DNA of 64,000 nucleotides from Clostridiales bacterium. GTDB taxonomy: Bacteria; Bacillota; Clostridia; Christensenellales; Borkfalkiaceae. Positions within the stretch are counted from its first letter, which is position 1; each line of letters begins with the position of its first letter. Of the stretch, positions 14,790 to 46,973 are shown piece after piece. The notes under the pieces were generated by a model. That model was given only the letters and a program-made list of their open reading frames with translations. It did not search any database and was not told where the DNA came from. The stretch is taken from the NCBI GenBank assembly GCA_015055945.1, contig SVHH01000001.1, positions 273,315 through 337,314 of the forward strand, in the 5' to 3' direction. The position numbers and the translations under genes were made by a program.

Positions 14790-14906
14790 AAGGCATAGTT
14801 GCAAGCAAGACAAGGCTCGCTCATAAAAACAGACGAGATTGACCGTCTGGTCATCGAGATTGTTTTTATAGAGCAGTAAACGCAGTATTGCGAAGTAAAT
14901 ATGCCT
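14790..14906 (+). repeat. Structured intergenic repeat, copy A
   Basis: Closing stem AGGCATA/TATGCCT. Middle stem ATAAAAACA (14823-14831) with TGTTTTTAT (14861-14869). Apical hairpin TGACC-GTCT-GGTCA. A third hairpin CGCA-GTAT-TGCG lies near the 3' end. Confidence 0.8.
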
Positions 14907-14915
14907 AGAAAAAGA

Positions 14916-14946
14916 AAAACCGTTTTGGAAAATCCAAAACGGTTTT
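14916..14946 (+). terminator. Terminator-like hairpin, duplicate of the SDR terminator
   Basis: AAAACCGTTTTGGA, AAA loop, TCCAAAACGGTTTT, followed by T-rich sequence. Confidence 0.7.
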
Positions 14947-14967
14947 AATTTTTCGTTAAAAAGATTT

Positions 14968-15078
14968 TAACCGTTTAGAACCAAGTTAGGCAAGGCTCGT
15001 GAAGTGTTTTGGGTGAGATTAACCTTTTTGGTTATCGAAGTAAAAACACGAAACAGTAACGTAGCATAACGACGGTTA
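14968..15078 (+). repeat. Structured intergenic repeat, copy B
   Basis: Closing stem TAACCGT/ACGGTTA. Middle stem GTGTTTT/AAAACAC. Apical hairpin TAACC-TTTTT-GGTTA. Confidence 0.75.
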
Positions 15079-15091
15079 TAAACGAGCATAA

Positions 15092-15120
15092 AAAAAGCAG
15101 TGCAAAATGCACTGCTTTTT
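15092..15120. terminator. Terminator-like hairpin, 13-bp stem
   Basis: AAAAAGCAGTGCA, AAA loop, TGCACTGCTTTTT, between repeat copies B and C. Confidence 0.8.
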
Positions 15121-15144
15121 TATATGCGTGTTAAAATGGTTAAA

Positions 15145-15260
15145 CGGTTTAGATGCAAGCAGTTCAAGGCTCGCTTGCAAAAATGGATGAAATAGACCGT
15201 CTGGTCATTGAAGTCATTTTTGCAAAGCAGTAAACGATGAAATGCGACGCATATAAGCCG
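15145..15260 (+). repeat. Structured intergenic repeat, copy C
   Basis: Closing stem CGGTTTA/TAAGCCG with one U-G pair. Middle stem TTGCAAAAATG (15175-15185) with CATTTTTGCAA (15215-15225), 11 perfect pairs. Apical hairpin AGACC-GTCT-GGTC. Confidence 0.8.
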
Positions 15261-15270
15261 AATAAAAATA

Positions 15271-15306
15271 AAAAAAAGTATAGGAACAACGTCCTATACT
15301 TTTTTT
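15271..15306 (-). terminator. tuf terminator
   Basis: AAAAAAAGTATAGGA, 6-base loop, TCCTATACTTTTTTT: a 15-bp stem with A- and T-tracts, 3' of tuf on the minus strand. Confidence 0.9.
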
Positions 15307-15324
15307 TATTTTTAAGGTTTAACC

Positions 15325-16545
15325 TTATTTAACAATCTTAGCAACAACGCCTGAACCTACGGTTCTGCCACCTTCACGGATAGCGAATCTCAAACCTTCT
15401 TCCATAGCGATAGGAGTGATGAGTTCAACGTCCATTTCAACGTTGTCACCAGGCATAACCATTTCTACGCCTTCGGGAAGTTTGATTGAACCAGTAACGT
15501 CGGTAGTTCTGAAGTAGAATTGAGGACGATAGTTGTTGAAGAACGGAGTATGTCTACCACCTTCATCTTTAGAAAGTACGTAAACTTGACCCTTGAATGC
15601 GGTGTGGGGTTTTACTGAACCGGGTTTAGCAATAACTTGACCACGTTCGATATCTTTCTTATCGATACCACGGAGAAGAGCACCAACGTTGTCACCAGCT
15701 TGTGCTTCGTCAAGAAGTTTACGGAACATTTCAAGACCGGTAATAACGGTGTTTCTGCTTTCTTCAGAAAGACCTACGATTTCAGCGGGATCGTTAACGT
15801 GTGCAACACCACGTTCTACACGGCCGGTAGCAACAGTACCACGACCAGAAATGGTGAATACGTCTTCTACAGGGAGAAGGAAGGGTTTAGCTTCGTCACG
15901 TTCAGGAGTAGGAATATAGGTGTCTACTGCATCCATAAGTTCGAAAATAGGTTTGCAATCTGCAGAAGCCTTAATTTCATCAGCAGAGTGGTCGCCTTGA
16001 GCATATTCGAGAGCCTTAAGAGCAGAACCCTTGATGATGGGAGTATCGTCGCCAGGGAAACCATATTCAGAAAGAAGTTCTCTGATTTCCATTTCAACGA
16101 GTTCCAAAAGTTCGGGGTCATCGAGTTGGTCGCATTTGTTCATGAATACGATGATGTAAGGAACACCTACTTGACGAGCAAGAAGAATGTGTTCTCTGGT
16201 TTGGGGCATGGGACCATCGGTAGCAGCAACTACGAGGATTGCGCCGTCCATTTGAGCAGCACCGGTAATCATGTTCTTAACGTAGTCAGCGTGTCCGGGG
16301 CAGTCAACGTGTGCATAGTGACGGTTTTCGGTTTGGTATTCAACGTGTGAAGTGTTAATCGTGATACCACGTGCCTTTTCTTCCGGTGCCTTATCGATTT
16401 CGTCATATCTCATCTTTTGAGCGTTACCCAAAGAAGATAAAGTCATAGTGATAGCCGCGGTAAGAGTAGTTTTACCGTGGTCAACGTGACCGATAGTACC
16501 GATGTTAATGTGCGGTTTGCTTCTGTCAAATTTAGCTTTTGCCAT
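15325..16545 (-). CDS. tuf: Translation elongation factor Tu
   Basis: 406-aa GTPase that delivers aminoacyl-tRNA to the ribosome. G1 is [10 protein letters not shown]3 DCPGHADY, G4 NKCD and G5 GSALKAL. The effector region [12 protein letters not shown] and the C-terminal domain are complete. The start at 16545 (MAKAKF) follows GGAGGAAACAATA; a start 15 bases upstream is rejected. Last gene of the str cluster, with an additional promoter between fusA and tuf. Confidence 0.98.
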
Positions 16546-16620
16546 TATTGTTTCCTCCAATAATTCTTAAATAAATTATAATTTTTTTTATTTTTGTTTT
16601 TTATTTTAATACGTAATCTT

Positions 16621-16649
16621 ATTTTACAATAATTTCTATTAATTGTCAA
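16621..16649 (-). promoter_or_regulatory. Internal tuf promoter
   Basis: TTGACA (16644-16649), 17-base spacer, TAAAAT (16621-16626) in the fusA-tuf gap. It gives tuf extra expression independent of the str operon. Confidence 0.75.
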
Positions 16650-16656
16650 CAGTTAA

Positions 16657-18726
16657 TTACGCTTTTTTACCCATAATCTTTTCAGCAACAGACTTGGGTA
16701 CTTCAGCATAGTGGCTGAATTGCATGGTGTAGTTACCTCTACCTTGCGTTCTTGATCTAAGGTCGGTTGCGTAACCGAACATTTCAGAAAGCGGGATGTG
16801 TGCATCGATAACTTTTACACCGTTTCTATCATCAGTACCTTGGATAATACCACGACGAGCGGTTACGTTACCCATAAGGTCACCAAAGTAATCGTCCGGA
16901 GTAATGATTTCAACCTTCATAATCGGTTCTAAGAGAACGCTCTTAGCTTTTGCTAAGCCGTCTTTAAGAGCCATTGAACCAGCAATCTTAAACGCCATTT
17001 CTGATGAGTCAACGTCGTGGTAACTACCGTCGTAAACGGTTACTTTGAAGTCAACTACTTCATAGCCTGCTAAGATACCGTTCTTAGCTGCTTCTTGAAT
17101 ACCCTTGTTGATAGGTTGGATGAATTCCTTAGGAATTGAACCACCAACGGTTTCGTCAACGAATTCGTAGCCCTTACCAGGTTCTTGGGGTTCAAGGCGA
17201 ATCTTACAGTGACCATATTGACCGTGACCACCTGATTGACGCTTGAACATACCTTCCGCTTCAACGGCTTGTCTAATTGTTTCCTTGTAAGAAACTTGGG
17301 GTTTACCAACGTTTGCTTCAACTCTGAATTCGCGGAGCAATCTGTCTACGATAATTTCAAGGTGAAGTTCGCCCATACCAGCGATAATGGTTTGACCGGT
17401 TTCGGTATCGGTGTGCGTTTTGAAAGTGGGATCTTCTTCAGCAAGTTTTGCAAGAGCGAAGCCCATCTTTTCTTGACCTTGTTTGGTCTTGGGTTCAATA
17501 GCAACTTCGATAACGGGATCGGGGAATTCCATTTGTTCAAGGATAATCGGCTTTGCTTCATCACAAAGAGTATCACCAGTGGTGGTTTCTTTAAGACCTA
17601 CGAGCGCGCAAATTTCACCTGAATATACTGCATCAACTTCTTCTCTGTGGTTAGCGTGCATACGAAGGATACGTGCAACACGTTCTTTCTTACCCTTTAC
17701 ACTGTTGTAAACGTAAGAACCGGTTTTAAGTACGCCTGAGTATGCGCGGAAGAATGCAAGTTTACCAACGAACGGGTCGGTCATAATCTTAAATGCCAAA
17801 CCACTGAAAGGTTCGTCGTCACCAGGATTTCTTGAATCTTCTTCACCGTTAGTATTAACGCCGTTTACAGCACCAACGTCTAACGGGCTGGGAAGGTAAT
17901 CAACTACTGCGTCCAAAAGGTTTTGAACGCCTTTATTTTTGTAAGAACTACCGCAAAGTACGGGAGTAACTTTCATAGCAAGAGTTGCTGTACGCAAACC
18001 CTTTTTAATTTCTTCGATAGAAAGGTCGCCTTCTTCAAAGAATTTTTCCATCAATGCGTCGTCAGTTTCAGCCGCAACTTCTACCACAGCCGCTCTGAGT
18101 TCTTCAACCATGTCTGCCATATCAGCAGGAACGTCGGTTATGTCAATTTCTTTACCCAAATCGTCAAGATAGATATAAGCCTTTCTAGCGATAACGTCTA
18201 CGATACCTTTGAAAGTGTCTTCCTTACCTACGGGTACAACGATGGGAAGCGGGTTGGTATGAAGTCTTTCACGCATCATGTTAACAGCGTTGTCATAGTT
18301 AGCGCCGTTAATATCCATCTTGTTGATGTATGCGATACGGGGAACTTTATACTTGTCAGCTTGACGCCATACGGTTTCACTTTGGGGTTCAACACCGCCC
18401 TTTGCACAGAAAGTTGCAACGGCGCCGTCGAGAACACGGAGTGATCTTTCTACTTCTACGGTGAAGTCAACGTGTCCAGGAGTATCAATAATGTTAATAC
18501 GGTGGCCTTTCCAATAGCAAGTGGTCGCAGCACTGGTAATAGTAATACCACGTTCTTGTTCTTGAACCATCCAGTCCATAGTTGCGCCACCTTCGTGGGT
18601 TTCGCCTAACTTATGGGTTTTACCGGTATAGAACAAAATACGTTCAGTGGTAGTGGTCTTACCTGCGTCGATGTGCGCCATTATACCTATATTTCTGGTT
18701 ACACCTAAATCAAAATCTCTCGGCAT
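16657..18726 (-). CDS. fusA: Translation elongation factor G
   Basis: 689-aa translocase GTPase. G1 [16 protein letters not shown]3 DTPGHVDF and G4 NKMD are all present. Domain IV carries the conserved YKET ... GGHGQYGHC region and the C-terminal domain is intact. It sits between rpsG and tuf in the standard str order and has the normal length. Confidence 0.98.
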
Positions 18727-18744
18727 AATGTTTTATCTCCCAAA

Positions 18745-19215
18745 TTAGTATCTAAAATGTGCAAAAGCCTTGTTTGCTTCAGCCATTCTATGAGTGTCTT
18801 CTTTCTTCTTAACTGCGCTACCAGTGTTATTGAATGCGTCAACGAGTTCACCAGCGAGTCTTTGAGCCATTTCTCTTTCGCCTCTCTTTCTTGCTGCTGC
18901 TACCAACCATCTGATTGCGAGTGTTTGTCTTCTTTCAGCACGGATTTCGATAGGTACTTGATAGTTAGCACCACCAACTCTCCTTGCTTTTACTTCTACC
19001 ATAGGCATAATGTTTGCGAGCGCTTGATTAAACATTTCTTTTGCTTCTGCGCCAACTTTTTCTGATGCTGCAGTGAACGCTTCGTAAACGATGCCTTGAG
19101 CAATACCCTTCTTACCGTCGAGCATAACTTGATTGATAAGTTTGGTTACAACCTTATCGTTATACACGGGATCGGGTAATACGTCTCTTTTTGCAATACT
19201 GCCTCTTCTCGGCAT
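18745..19215 (-). CDS. rpsG: Ribosomal protein uS7
   Basis: 156-aa small-subunit head protein that nucleates 16S 3'-domain assembly. It begins [10 protein letters not shown] and contains the [16 protein letters not shown] segment typical of S7. It is preceded by AAAGGAGG and by a heavily structured 215-base rpsL-rpsG spacer, a likely site of S7 autoregulation. Confidence 0.97.
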
Positions 19216-19240
19216 ATCTGTAATCCTCCTTTAATTTTTG

Positions 19241-19387
19241 TATGCGGTGCGTGGCATACTCACGATTAAGGGTAAACCCTTGTGTTTAGTACAGCTATCG
19301 CTTGCCCTATTGGGTAGCGAACCTTCTGTCTTACGACATACTGCCTACCAAATCGGGTTAATTTTCCGAATTCCGATTATAAGTAGG
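19241..19387 (-). ncRNA. Structured rpsL-rpsG intercistronic leader
   Basis: In the minus-strand RNA at least five helices are visible. CCTAC/GTAGG with nested ATCGG/CCGAT spans 19344-19387. TGTC-GTAA-GACA is at 19327-19338. TCGCT with CCC/GGG and AGCGA is at 19298-19320. AAGGGT/ACCCTT is at 19268-19281. CGTG/CACG is at 19250-19264. In E. coli the S12-S7 spacer is the S7 repressor site. A comparable role here is inference. Confidence 0.6.
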
Positions 19388-19431
19388 TGTCTTTTGTTAA
19401 ATAAGTTTTAGTTTTAATGTTTTAGTTAAAC

Positions 19432-19803
19432 TTATTTAGGTCTCTTAGCGCCGTATTTAGATCTTGCTTGTCTGCGTTTTGCAACACCAGCAGTATCGAG
19501 CGCGCCACGAATAATGTGATATCTTACACCAGGTAAGTCTTTAACTCTACCGCCACGGATAAGAACAGAGCTGTGTTCTTGAAGGTTGTGACCTTCACCG
19601 GGGATGTAAACGATACCTTCTGCTTTGTTAGTCAAGCGAACACGAGCAATTTTACGAAGAGCTGAGTTAGGTTTCTTCGGCGTAGTCGTAGTTACTGACA
19701 AGCATACGCCACGCTTTTGGGGACATTCATCCAATGCGGGTGATTTTGACTTGTAAGTGATTTTTGCTCTGCCTTGTCTAATAAGTTGTTGAATTGTAGG
19801 CAT
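19432..19803 (-). CDS. rpsL: Ribosomal protein uS12
   Basis: 123-aa decoding-site protein. [10 protein letters not shown] and the [14 protein letters not shown] loop are intact, with the Lys residues altered in streptomycin-resistant mutants unchanged. First gene of the str operon. SD AAAGGAGGTGCG. Confidence 0.98.
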
Positions 19804-19877
19804 ATCGCACCTCCTTTACTTATTTCGGATATTCAGAAAACGGATTCGGAATTTCCGTTTTTAGAAACTGTTTTTAT

Positions 19878-19901
19878 ACTCGGTGGAATTACCCACCGAG
19901 T
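19878..19901 (-). promoter_or_regulatory. 5'-end hairpin of the str operon mRNA
   Basis: ACTCGGTGG/CCACCGAGT with a 6-base loop. It starts at about the expected +1 of the promoter at 19906-19934, so it would cap the 5' end of the mRNA. It has no T-run on the minus strand, so it is a poor rpoC terminator. Confidence 0.55.
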
Positions 19902-19905
19902 AAAT

Positions 19906-23603: not shown

Positions 23604-26600
23604 TTATTCTTCATCCGTGATGTCGATATCGTCGTAATCTTCATCTTCTAAGCCGTCAACTTCGGGGATAGAAGTGTCGATTTCATCGTCTTCATCATCG
23701 AACATACCTGTAAAGTTGAGTTCATCGCCCAAATCGTCGTCAGTATCGCTGTCTTCAAATACAACTTCGCCAACGTCGGTTTCATCGATTTCTTCAATAG
23801 CAACTTCGTCTTGAACAACTCTTTCACGAACGAACGGCATATCGTCGATATCGCTTTCGATAAGATCTTTGATAGCTAGTTCTTCTTTGTTTTCAGTAAG
23901 AACTTTCATATCGAGTGCCAAAGATTGTAATTCTTTGAGCAATACCTTGAATGCTTCGGGGATACCCGGTTCGCTGATGTTAGTGCCCTTAACGATTGAT
24001 TCATAAGTCTTAACTCTACCAACGATATCGTCAGACTTAACGGTAAGGATTTCTTGTAAGATGTGTGCTGCGCCGTACGCTTCAAGTGCCCAAATTTCCA
24101 TTTCACCGAAACGTTGACCACCGAACTGTGCTTTACCACCGAGCGGTTGTTGGGTTACGAGACTGTAAGGACCAGTTGAACGCGCGTGAATCTTATCGTC
24201 AACCAAGTGGATAAGTTTGATCATATACATTTGACCAACGGTTACCCTATTTTCAAACGGTTCACCCGTTCTGCCGTCGTAAAGTTGAATTTTACCGTCA
24301 ACTTCGCCGTCGGGGTTAACAATATTGTTTTCGCGGAGCAATTCTTTAATATCGCTTTCAGATGCACCGTCGAATACGGGGGTTGCAATCTTCCAGCCGA
24401 GTTGTTTACATACTAAACCTAAGTGAACTTCTAATACCTGACCGATGTTCATACGAGAAGGAACGCCGAGCGGGTTAAGTACGATTTGAAGCGGAGTACC
24501 GTCAGCCATAAAGGGCATATCAGATTCGGGAAGAATTCTTGAAATAACACCCTTATTACCGTGACGACCTGCCATCTTATCCCCGATAGAAATCTTTCTC
24601 TTTTGAGCGATGTAAACTCTAACGAGTTTATTTACGCCGGGAGAGAGTTCGTCTTTGTTAGCGCGGGTAAAGATTTTAACGTCTACAACGATACCGCCTT
24701 CACCGTGCGGAACTTTGAGTGAAGTATCTCTAACTTCTCTTGACTTTTCACCGAAAATTGCGCGGAGCAATCTTTCTTCGGGGGTAAGTTCAGTTTCACC
24801 CTTAGGCGTAACTTTACCAACCAAGATATCGCCACTGTTAACTTCAGCACCGATTCTTACGATACCGTCTTCGTCAAGGTCTTTAAGCGCGTCTTCACCA
24901 ACATTGGGGATATCTCTAGTGATTTCTTCTTCACCAAGTCTAGTATCCCTTGCTTCGATTTCGTGTTCTTCAATGTGGATAGTGGTAAATACGTCTTCTC
25001 TAACGAGTTTTTCCGATAAGAGTATAGCGTCTTCGTAGTTATAACCTTCCCAGCTCATGAAACCAACTAAGATGTTTCTGCCGAGAGCAAGTTCGCCGTT
25101 TCTGGTTGAAGGACCGTCGGCAATGGTTTGACCAGCCGCAATCTTTTCACCCTTGTCAACGATAGGTCTTTGGTTAAGGCAAGTGCCTTGGTTGCTACGT
25201 TCGAATTTCTTTAAGATATATTCTCTATCCGTACCATCTTCTTCGGTAATTACGATTTTATCACTTGCAACAGTTTTAACAGTACCAGCGTTAACAGCGT
25301 TAACCATTACACCAGAGTCGTAAGCGATTCTTCTTTCAATACCAGTAGCAACGATAGCGTTTTCAGGACAAAGTAGCGGAACTGCTTGACGTTGCATGTT
25401 AGAGCCCATGAGCGCACGGTTGGTATCGTCGTTTTCCAAGAACGGAATAAGCGCGGTAGCAACTGAAATTAACTGTTTGGGCGAAACGTCCATGTAGTCC
25501 ATTTTTTCCTTAACGTCTTCAGTAATTTCATCTCTGTGTCTGCAAGAAACACGGTCGTTTACGAAATACTTGTTATCGATAAGGGGTTCGTTTGCTTGTG
25601 CAACGATGTAATTATCTTCTTCGTCTGCGGTAAGATAATCAACGTGTTCGGTTACTTCGGTAATGATCTTACCGTCTTCACCCATTCTGTGTTCAATCTT
25701 TCTATAGGGTGATTCGATAAAGCCGAATTCGTTTACCTTAGCGTAAGCAGCGAGAGATGAGATAAGACCGATGTTTTGACCTTCAGGGGTTTCAATCGGG
25801 CACATTCTGCCGTAGTGAGAGTGGTGAACGTCACGCACTTCAAAGGTTGCTCTATCACGGTTAAGACCGCCAGGACCTAAAGCAGAAAGTTTTCTCTTGT
25901 GGGTAAGTTCAGCAATCGGGTTGGTTTGGTCCATAAATTGAGAAAGTTGTGATGAACCAAAGAATTCCTTAATAGCAGAACTTACGGGGCGCACGTTGAT
26001 AAGACCTTGGGGAGAAACGTCTTTGGGATCTTGAGTACCCATTCTTTCTCTGATAACGCGCTCAAGTCTTGCAATACCGATACGGAATTGATTTTGTAAA
26101 AGTTCGCCAACTGAACGAACACGACGGTTACCTAAGTGGTCGATATTGTCAACGCTATTGATACCGAAAGCAAGGTCAAGGTTAACTGAAACGCTTGCAA
26201 CGATATCGTCAACGGTAATGTGCTTGTGGTTGAGTTTTTCCATAAGCGGACGGAGAGTTTTTCTATCTTCCGCGCCGATGGTTTCAGGAAGAGTGCCTTC
26301 GGTAATTTCATAGAACTTAACGCAAGCGTTGATGAACTTAATTCTAGTTTCACGCGCCTTTTCTTGGTTCTTTCTATCTTCGGGTTTTTCTTCCCCTGCT
26401 TTGATTTCTTTTTCTTCGATGTAGAAGAAAGCGTTGATTTCTTTCTTCAAGATATCAGCAGTTTGTTCTACGCCACTTTCTTTTGCGGTTTCAGCAACTT
26501 GCTTAGAGAAAGTAAGCGTGGGATAATAAACGTAGTCGAGTAAGCCGAAAAGTCTGGGATTGATGCCAGTGCACGCTTCGAAACTTACTACGTTGTTTGC

Positions 26601-29357: not shown

Positions 29358-29774
29358 TTTTATATAGTTTTTTTCCTATCCACACCCCGCTGTCAACTTT
29401 TATTCCACTGCTCTTTCAATTTTATCCCACCGCACTTTTTACTCTACCGCACTTTTTACCACATCTTTTTGCAAATATATTCACTATTTACTGTTAAAGT
29501 ATAGAATATTCTATATATTAAGTAATTGTATCGAATTTTCTATATAATTATAATTAAAGTTAACACTTTAGTTCGTGCTATAGTTAGTACTATAGTTAGT
29601 GCTATAGTTAGTGCTATAGTTAAAGTTGTAATTTTATAAATATGGCTATAGTTTAAATTATATTTTTAAAACTATAGTTATGATTTTAGCATAACTTTAG
29701 CAAACTAATATAAAAGTGCATTTTGCTCTAATAAAAATAAATATCACCATACTTAATAAACAAAAAAATATAAG
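29358..29774. other. AT-rich regulatory stretch with CTATAG-type repeats
   Basis: No gene is supported. It contains a pyrimidine-rich part with a direct repeat ACCGCACTTTTTAC (29429-29442 and 29446-29459). Then come four tandem 12-mers (29575-29622) and a further inverted CTATAGTTT/AAAACTATAG pair at about 29644-29685, all leading to the XRE gene. Confidence 0.6.
29575..29622. repeat. Four tandem 12-bp units GTGCTATAGTTA
   Basis: Units start at 29575, 29587, 29599 and 29611. The second reads GTAC instead of GTGC. Each contains the palindrome CTATAG. Iteron- or operator-like, about 150 bases upstream of an XRE regulator. Confidence 0.85.
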
Positions 29775-30830: not shown

Positions 30831-31208
30831 TTCTTTTTTTTCTTGTAGATACAAGTAAATCTCTGCCAACGGGCGCATAAGTTAGAAACATTATTTTGGC
30901 CCAACACTTTGGTCTACATTTAAAACGTATAAGAAACCGTTTGTTATTTTAACAAGCGGTTTCTATGTTTTTAACGCTATTTTGTTAAAAAATTTTTAAG
31001 AATGAAAAATTCCACTCTACCCTATTATAAGGAATTAAGGATTTAGATGCAAGTTGCAGTAGGCTAAACCTTAATAAATGTATTTAAGTGTGAAAAAGCA
31101 AGCAGTTCAAGGCTCGCCCACACAAACGGATGAGATTGACCGTCTGGTCATTGAAATCGTTTTTGTAAGGGCAGAAACGCAGAAATGCGCCGCTTATTCG
31201 CGCTTAAA
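30825..31208. other. 384-bp gene-free stretch with hairpin and repeats
   Basis: It holds a 14-bp hairpin (30932-30945 with 30951-30964, one U-G pair), a miniature repeat derivative (31036-31074) and full repeat copy D. No coding frame is convincing. Confidence 0.65.
31036..31074 (+). repeat. Miniature derivative of the structured repeat
   Basis: TTAAGG (31036-31041) followed by the repeat's ATTTAGATGCAAG start, then directly a closing CCTTAA (31069-31074). It looks like an internal deletion that kept a closing stem. Confidence 0.5.
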
Positions 31209-33264: not shown

Positions 33265-33391
33265 ATTTTAAGGCGTAGATACAAGCAAGACAAGGCTCGC
33301 GAAGCGTTTTGGGTGAGATTAACCTTTTTGGTTATCGAAATCAAAACGCAAAGCAGTAACGCAGTATTGCGAAGTATATACGGCTTAAAAT
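33265..33391 (+). repeat. Structured intergenic repeat, copy E
   Basis: Closing stem ATTTTAAGGCGTA/TACGGCTTAAAAT (one G-G mismatch). Middle stem GCGTTTT/AAAACGC. Apical hairpin TAACC-TTTTT-GGTTA, then CGCA-GTAT-TGCG. The last base is the first base of the pta stop codon. Confidence 0.82.
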
Positions 33392-34422
33392 TAGGCTTGG
33401 AGAGCAGTAATTGCTACCACCGCAATAATGTCGTCAACGTTGCAACCACGAGATAAGTCGTTGATGGGTTTTGCAAAGCCTTGGCAGATAGGACCTAAAG
33501 CCATGTAACCGCCGAATCTTTGAGCAATTTTGTAACCGATATTACCAGCGTTGATGTTGGGGAATACGAATACGTTTGCGTTACCAGCAACGGTTGAATC
33601 GGGTGCTTTTAACTTACCAACTTCGGGAGCAACTGCAGCGTCGAATTGGAATTCACCGTCGAGTTTAAGGTCGGGTGCAGCAGCCTTTGCAATAGCGGTT
33701 GCTTCTTGCATTTTGGGAACTGACTTGAAGAACTTATCGTCATTACCAGAACCTTTAGTTGAGAAAGAAAGCATAGCAACTCTAGGTTCGATACCAGCGA
33801 TATTTTTTGCGGTTTCAGCAGAAGAAATAGCGATATCAGCGAGTTGTTGTGCATCGGGTTCGATGTTGATAGCACAGTCAGCAAATACTGCAACGCCATC
33901 GGGGTTGTATTTGTTTTCACGGTCAGCAACCATAATGAAACTGCTTGAAACGGTATTGATACCAGGCGCAGTTTTGATTACTTGAAGACCAGGACGGAGC
34001 GTGTTAGCGGTTGAGTGGCAAGCGCCTGAAACCAAACCGTCAACGTCGCCTGCTTTAAGCATAAGTGCGGCGTACATAGTGTAATCTTTCAATACGCCAG
34101 CCTTAGCAGCATCAACGTCAGCATATTCGGGAAGACCAGTTTTTTTGTTGATTTTGCCTTCTCTTGCTTTATAGAGCATTTCAGCGTAAGTAGCAGTTTT
34201 GTCGTAAGTTACGGGGTCAACTACGTTTACACCGGTAAGGTCAACGTCGGGGTTGTTTTTAGCGATTTCAGCAGGATTACCGAGAAGGGTAATTTTTGCA
34301 AGACCTTGCTTAACAACTTCGGCTGCAGCCTTAACTACTCTTGAATCTTCACCTTCGGGAAGAACTACGTGTTTGTTCATTGCAGATGCTTTTGCTTTAA
34401 TATTTTCTAAAACGTTGGACAT
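33391..34422 (-). CDS. pta: Phosphate acetyltransferase
   Basis: 343-aa short-form Pta (PTA_PTB family), converting acetyl-CoA and phosphate to acetyl phosphate for AckA. HVVLPEGEDSRV and the SGACHSTANTLRPGLQ region are typical. The C-terminal R-G-C-N-V-D-D-I end is intact. Divergent from tmcAL. The upstream region holds an AT-rich near-palindrome (about 34473-34499). Confidence 0.95.
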   Translation of the reverse strand: MSNVLENIKAKASAMNKHVVLPEGEDSRVVKAAAEVVKQGLAKITLLGNPAEIAKNNPDVDLTGVNVVDPVTYDKTATYAEMLYKAREGKINKKTGLPEYADVDAAKAGVLKDYTMYAALMLKAGDVDGLVSGACHSTANTLRPGLQVIKTAPGINTVSSSFIMVADRENKYNPDGVAVFADCAINIEPDAQQLADIAISSAETAKNIAGIEPRVAMLSFSTKGSGNDDKFFKSVPKMQEATAIAKAAAPDLKLDGEFQFDAAVAPEVGKLKAPDSTVAGNANVFVFPNINAGNIGYKIAQRFGGYMALGPICQGFAKPINDLSRGCNVDDIIAVVAITALQA

Positions 34423-35883: not shown

Positions 35884-36011
35884 TTTTAAGACATACATGC
35901 AAGTTGCAGTAGGCACCCCTATCGAAAAAAGATGAGATTAACCTTTTTGGTTATCGAAGTTTTTTGCGCAAGGCAGTAACGACCTGCAACGCAGTAGATA
36001 AGCCCTTAAAA
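35884..36011 (+). repeat. Structured intergenic repeat, copy F
   Basis: Closing stem TTTTAAG/CTTAAAA. Middle stem of AAAAAA/TTTTTT. Apical hairpin TAACC-TTTTT-GGTTA. 3' hairpin CTGC-AAC-GCAG replaces the usual CGCA/TGCG. It ends one base before the gdhA stop codon. Confidence 0.75.
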
Positions 36012-36012: not shown

Positions 36013-37461
<1,449 letters not shown>

Positions 37462-37580: not shown

Positions 37581-37670
37581 GCGCCGCAAATATGGCTTAA
37601 ATGTTTTTAAGGGTTTAGATACAAGTTGGGCTAGGCTCGACTGCACAAAAAGATGAGATTGAACGTCTAT
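37581..37670 (+). repeat. Truncated repeat pieces G0 and G1
   Basis: 37581-37600 matches the 3' end of copy G2 (GCAAATATGGCTTAAA). 37604-37670 matches the 5' half of the family (AAGGGTTTAGATACAAG ... GATGAGATTGAACGTCT) and then stops abruptly. Confidence 0.6.
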
Positions 37671-37680: not shown

Positions 37681-37804
37681 TTTTAAGACATAGTTGCAAG
37701 TCAGCCGTGTAACCAAAGCATTTTATGCTGGGCGTGTACTTTCTGTACACAACCAAATAAAAGCGCAAGTTTTACGCGGATCACGCAGCAAATATGGCTT
37801 AAAA
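37681..37804 (+). repeat. Structured intergenic repeat, variant copy G2
   Basis: Closing stem TTTTAAGACATA/TATGGCTTAAAA (one mismatch). The interior is different from other copies and has hairpins AGCAT/ATGCT and GTGTAC-TTTCT-GTACAC. It ends at the rseP stop codon. Confidence 0.65.
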
Positions 37805-38935
37805 CTAAAAGCATTGTTGCAAATCAACAAACACTGCAAACGCTAATAATAATACTAAACCGACTGTGTGAATTATCCCTTCTACCCTGCGGTTTATGGG
37901 CTTTTTAGTAATACCTTCAATCAAGTTAAACACTACCCTTGAGCCGTCTAATGCGGGGATAGGCAGCAAATTAAACACCGCTAAGTTTACGCCTATAAAA
38001 GAAGTGATGTTCAGTAAATTTCTAAAGCCGCCGACCTTTATCGCTTCGGCTGTAACCGAGATGGTCGTAACCGTGCCACCGAGTGAATTTATACCCAGCG
38101 CACCAGTTAAGAGTTGACCTAAAATTGTGAATATGCTAAGCGCCAGTTTGATTGAATACTCAAAACTTCTTGCAATAGTTCTAAAAAAGTTAAACTTTAT
38201 ACCCGTAGAATAAAGCCCGCTGTTAGTAATTTCGCCAGTTTCCGCGTTAGTTTCAACTAAAATGCCCAGTGCTGTAAGCAAAGTTTTATTATCTTCAACG
38301 TTCTTAAAATCGGTATCGGCGCGGAGCATTAAGTTAAGCGTTACTTCCTTACCGCCGCGGTAAACTAAAAGTTCAACCGTATCCCCCGCCTTTTTGTTCG
38401 CCACAGCGTCCATAAGGTCGGTTACGAGATAAATATTTTTACCGTCCGCCTTTATTAAAACGTCCTTTTCAATAAAACTGTTTTGTTCGGTATAAATAGG
38501 GTTTTCGGTCGGTGCTAATTTATACGCAACCAGTGCCGTTTGTCCGTAAATAGAGAACATCAAGATTATAGCGAGTAGCGCCAAAATAAAGTTCATAAGC
38601 GCACCCGAGATAAGCACTATAATTCTTTGCCACCACTTTTTGTTGTTAAACGCGGTTGGGTCGTCGCTTTCGTTATCTTCGCCACGGAAAGCGCAAAACC
38701 CGCCGATAGGAAGAATGCGGATAGAAAAAACTTCGCCGTTCTTTTTGGTTTTAGAAAAGATTTTAGGTCCAAAGCCGATAGCAAATTCTTCTATGCCAAA
38801 CCCGAAGATTTTACCCGCAACGTAATGCCCAAACTCGTGAACGGTTATCATTACTAAAAGAATTAAAACCGCCAGCGCGATATATCCTATATAGCCCATT
38901 ACTTCGCCAAAAGTGGCCATCAATAAATATTCCAT
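37805..38935 (-). CDS. rseP: RIP metalloprotease, RseP/RasP-type
   Basis: 376-aa site-2 protease that cleaves membrane anchors of anti-sigma factors and signal-peptide remnants. HEFGH in the first membrane segment supplies the zinc site. NLLPIPALDGSR in a late segment supplies the third ligand. A PDZ-like region lies between. Four membrane segments are expected. Its start codon overlaps the dxr stop (TAATG). Confidence 0.93.
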   Translation of the reverse strand: MEYLLMATFGEVMGYIGYIALAVLILLVMITVHEFGHYVAGKIFGFGIEEFAIGFGPKIFSKTKKNGEVFSIRILPIGGFCAFRGEDNESDDPTAFNNKKWWQRIIVLISGALMNFILALLAIILMFSIYGQTALVAYKLAPTENPIYTEQNSFIEKDVLIKADGKNIYLVTDLMDAVANKKAGDTVELLVYRGGKEVTLNLMLRADTDFKNVEDNKTLLTALGILVETNAETGEITNSGLYSTGIKFNFFRTIARSFEYSIKLALSIFTILGQLLTGALGINSLGGTVTTISVTAEAIKVGGFRNLLNITSFIGVNLAVFNLLPIPALDGSRVVFNLIEGITKKPINRRVEGIIHTVGLVLLLAFAVFVDLQQCF

Positions 38936-40921: not shown

Positions 40922-40930
40922 AGTTACACC

Positions 40931-41617: not shown

Positions 41618-42192
41618 TATACAGAAAGAATATCCTTTTCTTTTTCAACACAAAGTTTTTCAATCTTTTCGATAGATTCAGCAATAACTTTGTCTAAATC
41701 TTTTTCGCAAATTGCATGTTCATCTTCAGAAAGTTCTTTGTTGTTTTTCATTTTCTTCAAAGCATCCATACCATCGCGACGGATGTTTCTTACTGCAACC
41801 TTGCTGTCTTCTGCCATCTTCTTGATTTGCTTAACGAGTTCTTTTCTTCTCTCTTCAGTAAGCGCGGGGAAAGTAAGGCGGATAACTTTACCATCGTTTA
41901 CGGGGGTAATACCAAGGTTTTCAGCAAGTAATTGCTTTTCAATTACTTTAAGCATACTTGCATCCCACGGAGCAATAACCAAACATCTACCTTCAGTTAC
42001 TGAAAGGTTACCAACTTGGTTGATAGGCGTAGGAGTACCGTAGTAATCAACTAAAACTTTATCTAAAATATGGGGGTTTGCTCTGCCCGCACGAATAGTG
42101 ATATATTCGCCGTTCAAAACAGAAACAGTTTTTTCCGTTTTTTCCATAGTTTCCATCATAATCATTTCAAATTGTTCGTTTTGTATTGCCAT
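41617..42192 (-). CDS. frr: Ribosome recycling factor
   Basis: 191-aa three-helix RRF. I-R-A-G-R-A-N-P-x-I-L-D and Y-Y-G-T-P-T-P-I-N-Q are diagnostic, as is VRNIRRDGMDALKK. It splits post-termination ribosomes with EF-G. Slightly longer than the usual 185 aa. Overlaps uppS. Confidence 0.97.
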   Translation of the reverse strand: MAIQNEQFEMIMMETMEKTEKTVSVLNGEYITIRAGRANPHILDKVLVDYYGTPTPINQVGNLSVTEGRCLVIAPWDASMLKVIEKQLLAENLGITPVNDGKVIRLTFPALTEERRKELVKQIKKMAEDSKVAVRNIRRDGMDALKKMKNNKELSEDEHAICEKDLDKVIAESIEKIEKLCVEKEKDILSV

Positions 42193-42279
42193 AATAATTT
42201 CTCCTTTCGTTATGGTAATTGTATATAATAAGTTTAAAATTTAACAAGTTTTAATTTATATATAAGCATTATTTGTAGT

Positions 42280-42430
42280 TTTTGTAGAGACAAAGGTTGA
42301 ACAAGAAGGACAAGCCAAACGCCAGCAAGATAAGGCAAAGCCCGAGACAAGAGTATACATCTTGACAAGGGGTTTAACACAATATTGCGTAGCGTTTCGC
42401 GTGGACTTCTCAACCGTTTGGAGCGAAAAA
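42280..42430 (+). repeat. Diverged structured repeat, copy H
   Basis: The frr-pyrH spacer has fragments of the repeat consensus (GCAAGATAAGGCAAAGCCCG, ACAATATTGCG) and a CAAGA/TCTTG hairpin. Much weaker resemblance than the other copies. Confidence 0.4.
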
Positions 42431-42436
42431 AACTAT

Positions 42437-43144
42437 TTATTTAATAAGAGTTCCTATTTTTTCGCCCGTTACCGCTCTCATCAACGCGTTTTCTTCAAAG
42501 AGCCCAAAAGATAGAACGTGGATATTGTTTTCCATACAAATTGTTATTGCGGTGGTGTCCATAGCCTTTAAGCCTTGAGCAATATAATCTTTATAAGAAA
42601 CTTCGTCAAGTTTTTTAGCGTTGGGGTTGGTTTTAGGATCGCTATCGTAAATACCGTCAACGTTTTTAGCAAGAAGAAGAACTTCCGCATTGATTTCAGC
42701 CGCGCGGAGCGCAGCGCCAGTGTCAGTAGTAAAGTACGGATTACCAGTTCCGCAAGCGAAAATAACTATTCTACCTTTGTTAAGGTGTGACATAGCCTTT
42801 CTTAAAATGTAAGGTTCAGCAACACGAGTAATAGTGAGTGCAGTTTGAACGCGGGTAGGAACGCCCTTTCTCTCAAGCGCGTCTTGAAGCCCCAAAGCGT
42901 TAATGATTGTAGCGAGCATACCCATATGGTCAGCAGTAGTTCTATCCATTTCCTTGCCTTGTCTACCACGCCAGAAGTTACCGCCGCCGACGATAATGCC
43001 GATTTCAACGCCTAAGTTTTTAACAGCGATGATTTGGTCGGTAATAGAATCTAAAACTTGTTCGTTAATACCGTTGCCTTGTTCACCAGCAAGCGCTTCG
43101 CCCGAAAGTTTAATGATAACTCTTTTGTAAACTGCTTTTTTCAT
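42437..43144 (-). CDS. pyrH: UMP kinase
   Basis: 235-aa amino-acid-kinase-fold UMP kinase. KLSGEALAG, GGGNFWRGR and the TDTGAALRAAE region are conserved. It feeds pyrimidine nucleotide synthesis. It has its own promoter downstream of the tsf terminator. Confidence 0.97.
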   Translation of the reverse strand: MKKAVYKRVIIKLSGEALAGEQGNGINEQVLDSITDQIIAVKNLGVEIGIIVGGGNFWRGRQGKEMDRTTADHMGMLATIINALGLQDALERKGVPTRVQTALTITRVAEPYILRKAMSHLNKGRIVIFACGTGNPYFTTDTGAALRAAEINAEVLLLAKNVDGIYDSDPKTNPNAKKLDEVSYKDYIAQGLKAMDTTAITICMENNIHVLSFGLFEENALMRAVTGEKIGTLIK

Positions 43145-43173
43145 AAATGCCTTCTCCTTAACTTATCTTATTT

Positions 43174-43202
43174 ATTATATACTATTTTTTTATTTTTGTC
43201 CA
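43174..43202 (-). promoter_or_regulatory. pyrH promoter
   Basis: TGGACA (43197-43202), 17-base spacer, TATAAT (43174-43179). Confidence 0.7.
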
Positions 43203-43276
43203 TAGTAAAAACAATATCCGTTAAAAAAACCGACTTTTTTTAACATTAAACAATGTTTTTAGAGCCTAAACATAAC

Positions 43277-43306
43277 AAAACACCGTTAGGAAACCTAACG
43301 GTGTTT
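43277..43306 (-). terminator. tsf terminator
   Basis: AAACACCGTTAGG, AAA loop, CCTAACGGTGTTT. Confidence 0.9.
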
Positions 43307-43319
43307 ATAGTTAATGAAA

Positions 43320-44201
43320 TTATTTCTTCATTTGTGCTTCAACTTCAGCAGCGAAGTCGTCGCTTCTCTTTTCTAAGCCTTCGCCCATTTCGAAACGGGT
43401 AAAGCGTTTGATAGAAAGAGTTTTGCCCATCTTATCGCCATATGATTTAACGAGTTTTTCGATGGTCATTGAAGGATCTTTAACGAATGCTTGATTTACT
43501 AAGCAGAATTCTTCGTAATACTTCTTAACTCTACCTTCAACCATTCTATCTACGATAGCAGCGGGCTTACCTTCGTTAAGTGCTTGAGCCTTCAAGATTT
43601 CTTTTTCGTGTTCCAAAACTTCTGCGGGAACTTCGTTAGCGTTTAAGTACAAGGGTTTAGCAGCAGCGATTTGAAGTGCAACGTCGTGTGCAAGTTCTCT
43701 AGCACCGTCGCAAGTGCAACCTTCAACTTCTACTAAAACGCCAACCTTACCACCCATGTGGATGTAACTTTCAACAACGCCACAGTCAGTGGTGTATTTA
43801 GCGAAACGACGGATAGCGATTTTTTCACCGATTTTAGCGGTTGCTTCAACGGTAGCGTCAGCCTTAGCAGCAACTAAAGCATCGATATCAGCAACTTCGT
43901 TATCGCAAACGTATTCAGCAACGCTTGCTACGAAAGCCTTATATTGATCGCCCTTAGCAACGAAGTCGGTTTCACAGTTAACTTCAACTAAAACGCCGGT
44001 CTTGTCTTTAACTAAAGCAGCAACAATACCTTCAGCAGCGATTCTTGATGCCTTTTTAGCAGCGGTAGCCATACCCTTTTCTCTCAAAAAGTCAACAGCC
44101 TTTTCCATATCGCCATCAGTTTCTTTCAAAGCCTTTTGGCAATCAGCAACGCCTGCACCGGTCTTCTTGCGGAGTTCCATTACGTCTTTACTTGTAAACA
44201 T
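43320..44201 (-). CDS. tsf: Translation elongation factor Ts
   Basis: 293-aa nucleotide-exchange factor for EF-Tu. The N-terminal UBA-like domain ([27 protein letters not shown]) and the core [10 protein letters not shown] are intact. Directly after rpsB, the standard pair. Confidence 0.97.
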
Positions 44202-44228
44202 AGTTATAATCTCCCTTAAAATCTTAAA

Positions 44229-44966
44229 TTATTCAGCCTTTGCTTCTTCACTAGCGGCTTCAGCAACTTCTTCCATTTGTTCGCCTTGGTTTGCTTCGAT
44301 AACAGCGTCAGCGATAACAGATGCGATAAGTTTAACTGCTCTAATAGCATCGTCGTTACCAGGGATAACGTGATCGATAAGATCAGGATCACAGTTGGTA
44401 TCGGTAATTGCTACGATAGGAATGTTAAGTTTTCTTGCTTCTAAAACAGCAATGTCTTCTTGTGCGGGGTCAACGATAAACATTAAACCAGGAAGAGTTC
44501 TCATTTCTCTGATACCGCCAAGGTTGGTTTGAAGTTTTTCTCTTTCAGCCTTAAGACCGATAACTTCTTTCTTGGGGAGCAAATCAAATTCGCCCATCTT
44601 TTCCATGTTGTCAAGTTTGTTAAGTCTTTCAACTCTTGATCTAATGGTCTTGAAGTTAGTAAGAGTGCCACCAAGCCAACGACTGTTGATGTAGTATTGA
44701 CCGCATCTTTCTGCTTCTTCTTTGATAGCGTCTTGAGCTTGCTTTTTAGTACCTACAAAAAGTACGCTCTTGCCTTTCTTAACGGTTTCAACAACGAAAG
44801 GATAAACGTCCTTTTCGATGAGTTCAACGGTTTGTTCAAGGTTAATGATATGAATACCGTTTCTTTCGCCGTAGATGTACTTCTTCATTTTGGGGTTCCA
44901 ACGTCTGGTTTGGTGACCGAAGTGAACGCCAGTTTCAAGAAGTTGTTTCATAGTGATAACTGCCAT
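44229..44966 (-). CDS. rpsB: Ribosomal protein uS2
   Basis: 245 aa. [15 protein letters not shown] near the N-terminus and the [12 protein letters not shown] segment identify uS2. The C-terminal tail is Ala/Glu-rich. First gene of rpsB-tsf, preceded by GGAGGTATTTT and a structured leader. Confidence 0.98.
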
Positions 44967-44989
44967 AATAAAATACCTCCGTTCTGCCT

Positions 44990-45064
44990 CCTTGCGAACG
45001 CTTGATTAAGGGTTACATTTCCACGGTTTAATAGTTTTTTATGGAAACACGAAAACCCTTGCGA
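44990..45064 (-). ncRNA. Structured rpsB leader
   Basis: In the minus-strand RNA AAGGGTT (from 45054-45060) pairs with AACCCTT (from 45008-45014), with an inner TTTCCA/TGGAAA helix (45018-45023 with 45042-45047). It lies between the promoter and the rpsB SD, so it may be an S2 or other autoregulatory site. Inference from position and structure only. Confidence 0.55.
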
Positions 45065-45091
45065 TACACAAGTGCGAATTTTTGCTTGTAT

Positions 45092-45120
45092 ATTTTAGCA
45101 CAAAACCGCTATATATGCAA
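45092..45120 (-). promoter_or_regulatory. rpsB-tsf promoter
   Basis: TTGCAT (45115-45120), 17-base spacer ending in TGTGC, TAAAAT (45092-45097). Confidence 0.7.
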
Positions 45121-45254
45121 ACGATTTTATAGGGTTTTTTAAAGAATTTTAGTAAAAAACCAACAAAAAAGATGAAAATAGTTTTCGGCTTTTTTTGATA
45201 TACAATATGTAGTTTTTTTGGATAAAATATTTATTAGTAAAGCCAAAATAAAAC

Positions 45255-45362
45255 AAACAACAAGTTAGTTAAGTCTTGAAAAGTGCTTCGGATAAGATTT
45301 GCCTTATGATATTAAACTACAAATACGTTTTAGCAAACGAAGTACAATGCCGTTTATTTGGT
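45255..45362 (+). repeat. Diverged structured repeat, copy I
   Basis: ACAAGTTAGTTAAGTC, GATAAGATTTGCCTTATGAT and AATGCCGTTTAT align with the repeat's start, apical hairpin and 3' end. Confidence 0.4.
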
Positions 45363-45365
45363 TTA

Positions 45366-45441
45366 CTTGCTTGATTTTATTCTAACTTGTAGTAAATTTT
45401 CTTCATATATTTGAATTGCTTGCTTGATTTTATTCTAACTT
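45366..45441. repeat. 23-bp direct repeat pair
   Basis: CTTGCTTGATTTTATTC... occurs identically at 45366-45388 and 45419-45441 (period 53). Confidence 0.8.
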
Positions 45442-45469
45442 TTAATATATTTTTCATACTTGTTAGCCT

Positions 45470-46182
45470 ACACAGTTTGTAACTGTGCACAACGTTTTAC
45501 CCTGCCGCATAATCTCAACATTTATGTTTTTTGCATTATATTTTAAGCATTTAATTTGCACAGTTTCCAACTGTATAGATTTGTTAGATGATTTATTTAT
45601 TTTTCTCTTTCCGAGGCGTATACACTCGACCTTCATTTTTTCTAACTCTAATTCATAATGAGTTTCTTATATATCTCCGTTTGCCCACACAGTTTGTAAC
45701 TGTACAAAATGTTTTTACCTTTACACAAGACACTTCACGCCATTTATGGAGCAGTCTTTTAGTTAAACAATATTAAATGTTCATAGTTCAAAACTGTATA
45801 TAATATTTTAATTCTACCGCATCACAGTATTTTCTGCTCTGGTTTTTTTAGCATTAAACCCAAATACTTTTTAACGATGTAAACTATTTAGAATTTATTA
45901 AAATTAACCTATCTCCCGTCTCTTTAATTTAATCTATACTTTAGTAAGTATTAGTCATACACGATAAATGCATACAGTTTCAAACTGTGTGCAACATTTT
46001 ACCCTACCCTATAATCATAGTATTCGGTGTTTTTGTCTTATTCAATTTTTAATATTTAATCTACACAGTTTGTAACTGTATAGATAATTTTAATTTAATA
46101 AATTAAATCACTTGCCACCTTTTCACTGCATTCCGCAATAAACAATATTGGGCACACAGCTCAAAACTGTGTGCCCAATATT
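45470..46182. repeat. Array of seven ACAGTT-N3-AACTGT dyads
   Basis: Sites: 45471-45487, 45560-45574, 45689-45703, 45783-45799 (weaker), 45973-45988, 46065-46079 and 46144-46182. The last is expanded to a 16-bp perfect stem (AATATTGGGCACACAG and its complement, 7-base loop). A related half site ACAAACTGT overlaps the -10 of the adjacent XRE gene. Spacing is irregular (60-190 bp). Confidence 0.8.
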
Positions 46183-46185
46183 TGC

Positions 46186-46214
46186 TTGACAAATACAATT
46201 ACAAACTGTATAAT
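46186..46214 (+). promoter_or_regulatory. XRE promoter predicting a leaderless mRNA
   Basis: TTGACA (46186-46191), 17-base spacer, TATAAT (46209-46214). The ATG at 46222 lies eight bases after the -10, about where transcription would begin. No SD. Confidence 0.75.
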
Positions 46215-46221
46215 GTCAAGT

Positions 46222-46452
46222 ATGAAGAAAGAAAATCTTAAAGAATTTAAAATTTTAGCAAATAGACTGTTCGAATTGAGAGAACTTTACCATTATACGC
46301 AAATGGACGTTGCGGCGGAACTTGGCGTTTCTTATCAATCATACCAAGCGTATGAGCGCGGAATTGCTGTACCCACTTTGCAAAACTTTATAAAACTTGC
46401 AAAGTTTTACGACGTATCGCTCGATTATCTTGTTGGGCGCGACGATATTTAA
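46222..46452 (+). CDS. XRE-family HTH regulator, 76 aa
   Basis: L-A-N-R-L-F-E-L-R-E-L-Y-H-Y-T-Q-M-D-V-A-A-E-L-G-V-S-Y-Q is the HTH start (given here by residue), followed by YQAYERG and D-V-S-L-D-Y-L-V-G-R. DNA-binding domain only. Two ATGs lie further upstream in frame but fall in or before the -10 box, so 46222 is preferred. The preceding dyad array is its likely operator set (inference). Terminator follows at once. Confidence 0.87.
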   Translation: MKKENLKEFKILANRLFELRELYHYTQMDVAAELGVSYQSYQAYERGIAVPTLQNFIKLAKFYDVSLDYLVGRDDI

Positions 46453-46460
46453 AAAAATAA

Positions 46461-46493
46461 AAAACACTCACCTTTTTTAAGATGAGTGTTTTT
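46461..46493 (+). terminator. Terminator of XRE gene 46222
   Basis: AAAACACTCA/TGAGTGTTTT with a T-run. Confidence 0.88.
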
Positions 46494-46524
46494 GTTTTAT
46501 GATTGCTTTTATCTTTTTAATTCA

Positions 46525-46597
46525 AAATAAACGGTGTCGATTTTGGTTATCGAAATCAAAACACAAAGCAGTTAACGCAGTATTGCGCCGTTTATTT
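46525..46597 (+). repeat. Structured repeat, deleted copy J1
   Basis: AAATAAACGG/CCGTTTATTT closes a shortened element that keeps GGTTATCGAAATC and CGCA-GTAT-TGCG but has lost the 5' half. Confidence 0.65.
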
Positions 46598-46605
46598 GCT
46601 CTTGC

Positions 46606-46847
46606 TTTAAGGGTTTAGATACAAGCAAGACAAGGCTCGCTCGTCAAAACTAATAAGCAATATCAGCACTTTGATAAAAACAAAGTGCAAGATTTTGCAA
46701 TTGTTCTTCCTCTTCCCAAAAAATCTTTTGCTTCGCAAAATCTTTTTCGGGATACCCTTTTTTATTTTGGGTGAGATTAACCTTTTTGGTTATCGAAGTC
46801 AAAACGTAAAGCAGTAACGCAGTATTGCGCCGTTTATTCTCTCTTGC
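46606..46847 (+). repeat. Structured repeat, copy J2 with an insertion
   Basis: It starts AAGGGTTTAGATACAAGCAAG, is interrupted after GTCAAAAC (near 46650) by roughly 115 bases of unrelated sequence, and resumes at TTTTGGGTGAGATTAACC (about 46765). The flanking segment GCGCCGTTTATT ... GGGTTTAG is duplicated at 46586 and 46828. Confidence 0.65.
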
Positions 46848-46973
46848 TTTAAGGGTTTAGATACAAGTGTGGCTAGGCTCGACTGCGCAAAAAGATGAGA
46901 TAGAACGTCTGTTCATCGAAGTTTTTTGCGCAAGGCAGTTAACGACGCCACGCGCCGTAGATAAGCCCTTAAA
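46848..46973 (+). repeat. Structured intergenic repeat, copy J3
   Basis: Closing stem TTTAAGGGTTTA (46848-46859) with TAAGCCCTTAAA (46962-46973). Middle stem TGCGCAAAAA/TTTTTGCGCA. Apical hairpin AGAAC-GTCT-GTTC. The closing stem contains the stop codon of the DUF1292 gene. Confidence 0.82.

Follow-up and report, generated by a model that had tools for sequence, protein, structure and literature searches.

A dispersed palindromic repeat at gene 3' ends of a Clostridiales bacterium: a putative mobile element whose outer arm mirrors the host gene

Copies of the repeat in the window

The window, i.e., the whole stretch of 64,000 nucleotides (nt) analysed here (contig SVHH01000001.1 of the Clostridiales bacterium assembly GCA_015055945.1, positions 273,315 to 337,314), contains a family of repeats each copy of which is one long hairpin of about 126 nt, i.e., an imperfect palindrome. 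The repeat family is dispersed, and at many stop codons its outer arm mirrors the end of the host gene. We hold with moderate, evenly balanced confidence that the palindrome is a mobile element of the non-autonomous kind, with snap-back copying of the host gene end into the outer far arm as the predicted last step of its insertion. The copies within the window are listed below (+ and minus denote strands; sense positions are counted along the repeat).

14741..14783, +, truncated copy inside a duplicated segment that contains a terminator
14786..14911, +, copy A, full, model-forward (model match, fold); leftmost in the A-B-C array downstream of tuf
14966..15092, +, copy B, full (model match)
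15140..15265, +, copy C, full; directly follows the T-run of a terminator-like hairpin found downstream of tuf (15325-16560, minus)
31083..31208, +, copy D, full; immediately 3' of the stop codon of a bL32-like open reading frame (ORF; minus, identity by eye)
33266..33390, +, copy E, full; adjoins the TAA of a 343-amino-acid (aa) gene (33391-34422, minus)
35884..36010, +, copy F, full; 2 nt off the TAA of the gene 36013-37431 (minus)
37606..37668, +, truncated copy, only sense positions 65-127
37681..37803, +, full copy of a second sub-family, diverged; 1 nt from the TAG of the gene 37805-38935 (minus)
45259..45364, +, diverged copy, sense positions 5-113
46541..46603, +, truncated copy, sense positions 4-67
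46606..46841, +, long-form copy (J2) with a structured insert of ~120 nt at about 46648-46768
46848..46973, +, copy J3, full; overlaps the TAA of a 121-aa gene (46969-47334, minus)

At least eight good copies had been counted in a first-pass annotation made from the letters of the window. A, B, C, D, E, F and J3 are full copies, while J2 (46606) turned out to be only the plus-strand 5' end of the longer copy 46606-46841. The partial or diverged copies mentioned there are present as well, and the diverged copy at 37681-37803 adds an eighth full one. The gene beside copy E (33391-34422) is one that we take to resemble a phosphotransacetylase. Around the A-B-C array, a terminator-like hairpin CCGTTTTGGAAAATCCAAAACGG is duplicated, i.e., it is found before copy A and between A and B (window 14690-14945).

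Structure and covariation

The hairpin comprises four stems, i.e., the outer P1 of about 17 base pairs (bp), P2 of 7 bp, the middle P3, which is longer, and the apical P4. The stems are separated by the conserved internal loops CAAG, AGGCTCG, GATGAGAT..ATCGAAG and GCAGTAACG. Plus-strand folds reach z-scores from -5.2 to -6.3 for A, C, D, E and J3, and -2.6 and -2.7 for B and F. A kink-turn was considered by eye for the GATGAG/CGAAG loop; the loop is a symmetrical 4x4 loop, and we make no such claim.

For an alignment of 14 distinct copies, 91.1% of the pair cells are paired compared to 72.6% in shuffled alignments and 32-47% when partners are slid. Two-sided changes occur at 31/45 pairs, and cells with two-sided changes (108) far exceed those with one-sided standard changes (10). 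For 79 copies from four genomes, 91.4% of the pair cells are paired (shuffled: 67.5%; partners slid by 1-3 columns: 30-42%) with a covariation of 0.575 vs. 0.167 for shuffled data, where the alignment was fitted to the model, which favours structure. The repeats are real and their structure is strongly supported. That is, the structured family with covariation described in the first-pass annotation shows pairing and covariation above the shuffled level on both 14 and 79 copies.

Distribution

When searching Rfam at the gathering threshold as well as at E<=1 (E-value), we only find sub-threshold matches and no family above its gathering score, which agrees with the previous statement that no named family with this consensus was known. 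We relied on a model (R1) built from the 14 distinct copies for the searches of this and related genomes that had been put forward together with that statement. R1 gives 57 matches at E<=1 in the own 1.45-Mb genome (G000) and finds carriers in both genus and order. Within the genus, which is uncultured, the repeat is present in 29/44 genomes at E<=1e-5, with 0 to 42 copies per genome (same threshold, strict filters); G001-G004 and G012-G014 are among those lacking it. At the level of the order, at least 56/297 genomes and 21/125 genera carry it at E<=1e-4, own genome included; these counts are lower bounds given the strict filters and the 11 candidates scored per genome. No copies were found in a 16-genome sample of other families. 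Based on EF-Tu, the nearest named genome among the best 80 of 591 matches is a metagenome-assembled genome of a sheep-colon Clostridia (92%).

Carriage by viruses, phages or plasmids was considered and dropped: a single pattern match among viral contigs was unconfirmed by the model in the 13,364 bases examined, and a BLAST search of J3 against phages and plasmids gave no match.

Orientation and siting at gene ends

For the following statistics, near-full copies refers to the 104 copies of two sets, i.e., the own genome (~0.95 Mb of 1.45 Mb) and stretches of three relatives. Relative to GC skew, all near-full copies (104/104) show a single orientation. In the own genome, this holds for 89/89 profile matches with fragments included (four of them, near the skew switch, sit where the skew is <0.02), and in the stretches of the three relatives for 77/77 copies. 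Among the 57 model matches, the 46 listed copies are in one orientation, the remainder being weak or located on contigs outside the set. On contig C4, the flip in orientation falls into the interval 86-146 kb and the turn of the skew lies close to 140 kb. The latter adjoins two genes that we read as rsmG and dnaN and that are typically found around a replication origin.

The sense strand used here is that of the neighbouring leading-strand gene and thus the reverse of the plus strand of the first-pass annotation. In gene sense, 58/104 near-full copies start within -22..+8 nt of a called stop codon, 19 are found behind another copy, 6 behind a T-run and 21 elsewhere (scored with a simple ORF caller, which misses small genes such as bL32). 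Stop-codon siting is also observed for 28/35 copies from other genera and families. None of the 58 stop-abutting copies is on a lagging gene, compared to 197 lagging ones among 1128 genes (p = 1.5e-5 if independent; genes >=150 aa, simple ORF caller). Likewise, each of the 11 copies located in convergent gaps belongs to the leading gene. Together, stop-codon siting and the strict orientation within the genus make it testable why palindromes accumulate at gene 3' ends.

The outer arm mirrors the host gene end

Counted from the core, the two arms of P1 match each other over 17-18 nt; beyond this, the agreement falls to the background level of about 0.25 irrespective of the position of the stop codon, i.e., the match has a sharp edge. 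When far arms are exchanged between copies belonging to one genome, the outer 6 nt match at 0.625, compared to 0.860 for own arms (n=99). For copies with the stop codon inside the stem, the respective values are 0.649 (swapped) and 0.914 (own; n=37). In both cases, 0/2000 swaps reach the observed value.

Individual genes illustrate this match. The mnmE proteins compared end with FCVGK, and the native AAATAA is answered by TTATTT in the far arm in G000, G016, G044 and G017; in G005, the stop codon TAG of mnmE is answered by CTA. A gene of G006 ending with KIQRNKL is mirrored over some 15 nt of its codons, where copy-free orthologues in G000 and G009 end likewise. For G267 and G299, inspection by eye shows mirrored coding ends at genes that are presumably queA-like, as judged from the C-terminus FGDACLIV; in G006, the mirroring is partial. 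For some other stop-in-stem loci, the last codons may belong to the element and not to the host. An example is the hydrogenase-like gene of G000, in which a native CCAAAAAA is kept, after which the gene differs from its orthologues.

Stem covariation can arise from selection for structure or from one arm being copied from the other, and these two causes are usually confused. They can be told apart here because the near arm at mnmE and the queA-like genes is host coding sequence.

Strand preference of the fold

The non-canonical cells of the 79-copy alignment on the plus strand comprise 257 G.T vs. 32 A.C and 144 G.A vs. 14 C.T. The U-G bias of plus-strand mismatches reported earlier is thus reproduced, though two nearly invariant pairs supply 147/257 of the G.T cells. 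When the fitted alignment is not used, we find 70 G.T, 14 A.C, 42 G.A and 7 C.T cells within the inner part of P1 (position 5 left out). The outer, host-matching part of P1 shows no strand preference (G.T 14, A.C 15; G.A 7, C.T 4).

The first-pass annotation had suggested that plus-strand RNA is the selected form. Of this, the preference for the plus strand is retained given the non-canonical pairs. The covariation of the outer closing stem, in contrast, follows the local host without strand preference and therefore gives no evidence for selection on RNA. Furthermore, the repeat is antisense to the genes it adjoins, such that read-through RNA from those genes would represent the other strand. 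It is probably selection on the folded plus strand that maintains the inner stems and loops, and copying that maintains the outer arm. The non-canonical bias can also be read as mismatches that are demanded in the sense strand.

Presence, absence and recent spread

Orthologous gene ends differ in whether or not they carry a copy. For dnaK, copies are found in G000, G006 and G018 and none is seen at the other 24/27 gene ends; the dnaK end of G009, the sole one of these 24 run through the model, gave no copy. The pfkA gene has a copy in G000 only (16 gene ends), and a UPF0210-like gene in G000, G009 and G019 (15 gene ends). For mnmE, the model matches at the stop codon in 6/28 loci (G000, G005, G016, G017, G019, G044); in G044, the copy sits in the gap that separates mnmE from the next gene start. 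Elsewhere in the genome, pfkA and the UPF0210-like gene carry copies that share 99% and 97% identity, respectively, with J3, and we therefore take the spread to be recent.

An exact empty partner is available for one insertion site. In a genome of another family (L399, G110:C58), two 5S ribosomal RNA (rRNA)-like copies that follow an intact 5S both contain the element (1501-1625 and 1819-1943), which splits them at an identical base. That is, the intact GATGGT-A-CTTGTC compares to a filled GATGGT-[element..ACC]-CTTGTC in both copies. One base is replaced, no direct target duplication is found at this one site, and the far end CC/ACC mirrors the host GGT. Among fragments, 25 retain only the sense 3' part, compared to 7 with the 5' part alone (not counting three long-form pairs).

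Proposed insertion mechanism

Our more specific proposal, tentative and held at clearly less than even confidence, is that the element enters at a stop codon at the replication fork, lacks complete ends and finishes its last arm by copying the host end backwards. The product would be an inverted and not a direct target-site duplication. In this scheme, a strand that grows in leading direction and ends at a gene end such as TAA would be extended along a donor, i.e., a copy of the structured plus strand that could be single-stranded DNA or RNA. The extended strand would then fold back on its own stem, copy up to about 17 nt of the arm including the host's own end, and finally return to its template. 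The mechanism would explain the orientation because the growing strand has the leading sense. It would also account for the inverted copy and for the excess of sense-3' fragments (25 vs. 7).

Several observations weigh against insertion with copying of the host end. Nearly half of the near-full copies (46/104) do not abut a called stop codon. Outside the genus, the orientation is less strict: in other genera and families, only 28/35 copies have a G-rich sense strand (local skew), and two oppositely oriented copies occur within a single stretch of 19 kb. With regard to the host match, 4/37 stop-in-stem copies agree at just 3-4 of the 6 outer positions, and the mnmE copy of G019 shows no host match beyond the stop codon. 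The three near-identical copies (J3 and its two sisters) share the ends TTTAA..TTAAA, such that no copying of host letters is needed there. In addition, stem position 5 is a fixed mismatch in 98/99 copies and G.T is frequent near positions 9-11, and both features extend to copies with a host-derived arm. They go beyond what pure copying explains, and selection must therefore act, too.

Finally, no mobilising enzyme was found when searching 31 genomes of the genus for Y1_Tnp and RVT_1, neither of which tracks the element. Y1_Tnp (PF01797) is present in 6/31 genomes; it is absent from the carriers G006, G009, G010, G015, G016, G019, G022 and G044 as well as from most high-copy genomes, and its sole match in the own genome is G000:C5:124870-125226 (163-aa frame). 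RVT_1 (PF00078) is present in 5/31 genomes, likewise missing from most high-copy ones, and absent from G000, G006, G009, G019 and G022. Without co-occurrence, we rejected both a Y1 transposase and a reverse transcriptase as partner.

Alternative explanations

The repeat could be a cis-acting 3'-end element under selection, i.e., an mRNA stabiliser or a translation-termination or transcription-end hairpin, with the host match resulting from compensatory evolution with a constrained coding end. Such a role fits the exact stop-codon siting (both in the near-full set and in other genera and families), the strong covariation, and the fixed 17-nt helix whose mismatches persist even where the arm is host-derived. 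We nevertheless consider it unlikely, since many orthologous genes lack the repeat, near-identical copies are present at three loci, the repeat also occurs inside 5S copies and between mnmE and the next gene start in G044, and the outer arm has no strand preference.

Comparable in its low probability is a two-step origin, in which the repeat is inserted in whatever way and ordinary template switching at the quasipalindrome during replication then uses the near arm to rewrite the far arm, with host bases included. Both the origin and the maintenance of hairpins through template switching are documented (PMC8794818), and the 108 two-sided vs. 10 one-sided standard-change cells of the 14-copy alignment are in line with it. 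However, switches should vary in length, whereas the observed match ends sharply at 17-18 nt on average, and the internal mismatches are retained instead of being repaired.

Somewhat less probable still is a REP-like element that is or was moved by an IS200/IS605-type Y1 (HUH) transposase, such that single-stranded DNA is inserted 3' of a short TAA-ending target in the lagging-strand template. This is backed by the lack of target duplication, the short left flank and the one Y1_Tnp protein of the own genome. Furthermore, the sense strand corresponds to the lagging-strand template (inferred from skew), which is the template used by IS608 (PMC6006769), and REPs of other bacteria adjoin gene 3' ends and often supply the stop codon TAG (PMC3733652). 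These points are opposed by the rarity of Y1_Tnp in the genus (6/31, none in the eight carriers named above) and by the folded strand, as the favoured one is the opposite strand. Moreover, the GTAG/GTGG foot of REPs, sought at nt 14-24 from the core, is found for 0/99 sense feet and 3/99 on the other strand, and an inverted host copy is not a product of IS200/IS605 in the literature consulted.

A passenger of a retroelement (group II intron-like or another reverse transcriptase in trans) is very improbable: the surplus of sense-3'-only fragments (25 vs. 7, long-form pairs set aside) and the targets at gene ends and behind T-runs would suit it, but RVT_1 is absent from the own genome as well as from G006, G009, G019 and G022. 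Hardly tenable is a miniature inverted-repeat transposable element (MITE) with terminal inverted repeats that a DDE transposase would move, duplicating TTAA or TA at the target, given that many copies do end with TTTAA..TTAAA but ends vary by locus and follow the host, and that the 5S insertion loses one base without direct duplication. We also rejected a direct TTAA duplication as such, which is disfavoured by the inverted host-end copies and the 5S site, and noticed by eye no split pair of ends around an ORF among the 89 matches (about 0.95 Mb of 1.45 Mb).

Relation to known systems

With regard to siting, REP palindromes are the closest known kind. REPs are located at gene 3' ends, where they often supply the stop codon TAG (PMC3733652), and are associated with RAYT proteins (PMC2817692). 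Our repeat shares with the REP/BIME and RAYT system that its palindromes are dispersed with many copies per genome, lie beside gene 3' ends and are able to provide a stop codon (PMC3733652). It differs in size and architecture (126 nt and four stems compared to REP lengths given as 21-65 nt; PMC6006769), in that most carriers lack Y1_Tnp, in its host-mirroring outer arm and in its single orientation relative to skew within the genus.

Similarity to ERIC/IRU/RU-1, a 127-bp repeat of enterobacteria (PMC2229807), and to other bacterial MITEs concerns the length, the imperfect palindrome, the dispersal and the non-autonomous nature. Here, by contrast, the host bacteria are different, one arm depends on the host and no direct duplication is found at one exact site; ERIC is set apart by description and not by alignment. 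For IS200/IS605 (IS608), the short left target and the absence of a target duplication (one site) correspond. The sense strand of our repeat is on the lagging-strand template as well (as deduced from skew), though either strand may be the active one and the other strand folds better. Most carriers of our repeat are without a Y1 protein, and an inverted host copy is present. Quasipalindrome template switches share the arm-from-arm copying that explains two-sided changes (PMC8794818); unlike them, we observe a dispersed repeat with a 17-nt limit that is inserted at gene ends.

None of the compared systems has a host-copied arm in the literature consulted. The repeat is therefore classed with the mobile bacterial palindromes, and its insertion signature may be new. 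This is also in agreement with a literature search of titles and abstract openings, which gave no account of such a repeat with a host-copied end. Should the inverted target copy result from insertion, it would provide a signature that can be searched for in any genome and that would expose mobile palindromes missed by tools based on direct duplications. Host-end copying at insertion, if true, would represent a novel mode of DNA insertion.

Sub-families, variants and nearby repeats

The second sub-family has the same closing stems with another apical half (GTGATACGCGTAAAAC..GTACACGCCC). Besides the window copy at 37681-37803, ~123-nt copies are found on contigs C15, C4 and C7. Short variants of about 103-104 nt are located at C7:98085, 150813 and 159925, C11:37184 and C17:22669.

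The ~120-nt insert of the long-form copy 46606-46841 is common to two other loci of the same genome; the long form is found at C7:108638-108880, at C17 about 24211-24451 and in G009 (L239). Its insert is nearly identical between carriers (82% in G009) and always lies at the same point of the middle stem, in carriers with differing outer stems. C14 and G006 contain related sequence at other places. The insert contains a short open frame and was considered as a captured gene. We dropped this idea because part of the insert recurs in other hairpin-like repeats.

Three further repeats were observed within the window. Between 45462 and 46200, ACAGTTTGTAACTGT-like palindromic sites are repeated (45462, 45679, 45964, 46055 and near 46155) upstream of a small helix-turn-helix (HTH)-like ORF ending at 46452, which looks like an operator array. 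Upstream of another HTH-like ORF, 29580-29650 is a short tandem repeat of AGTGCTATAGTT. Finally, a ~52-nt repeat (TTCACTTTTT..CGTGAGTTTAGGGTGAGG) is present in four copies at 60668-60931 with a start-to-start spacing of 61-82 nt.

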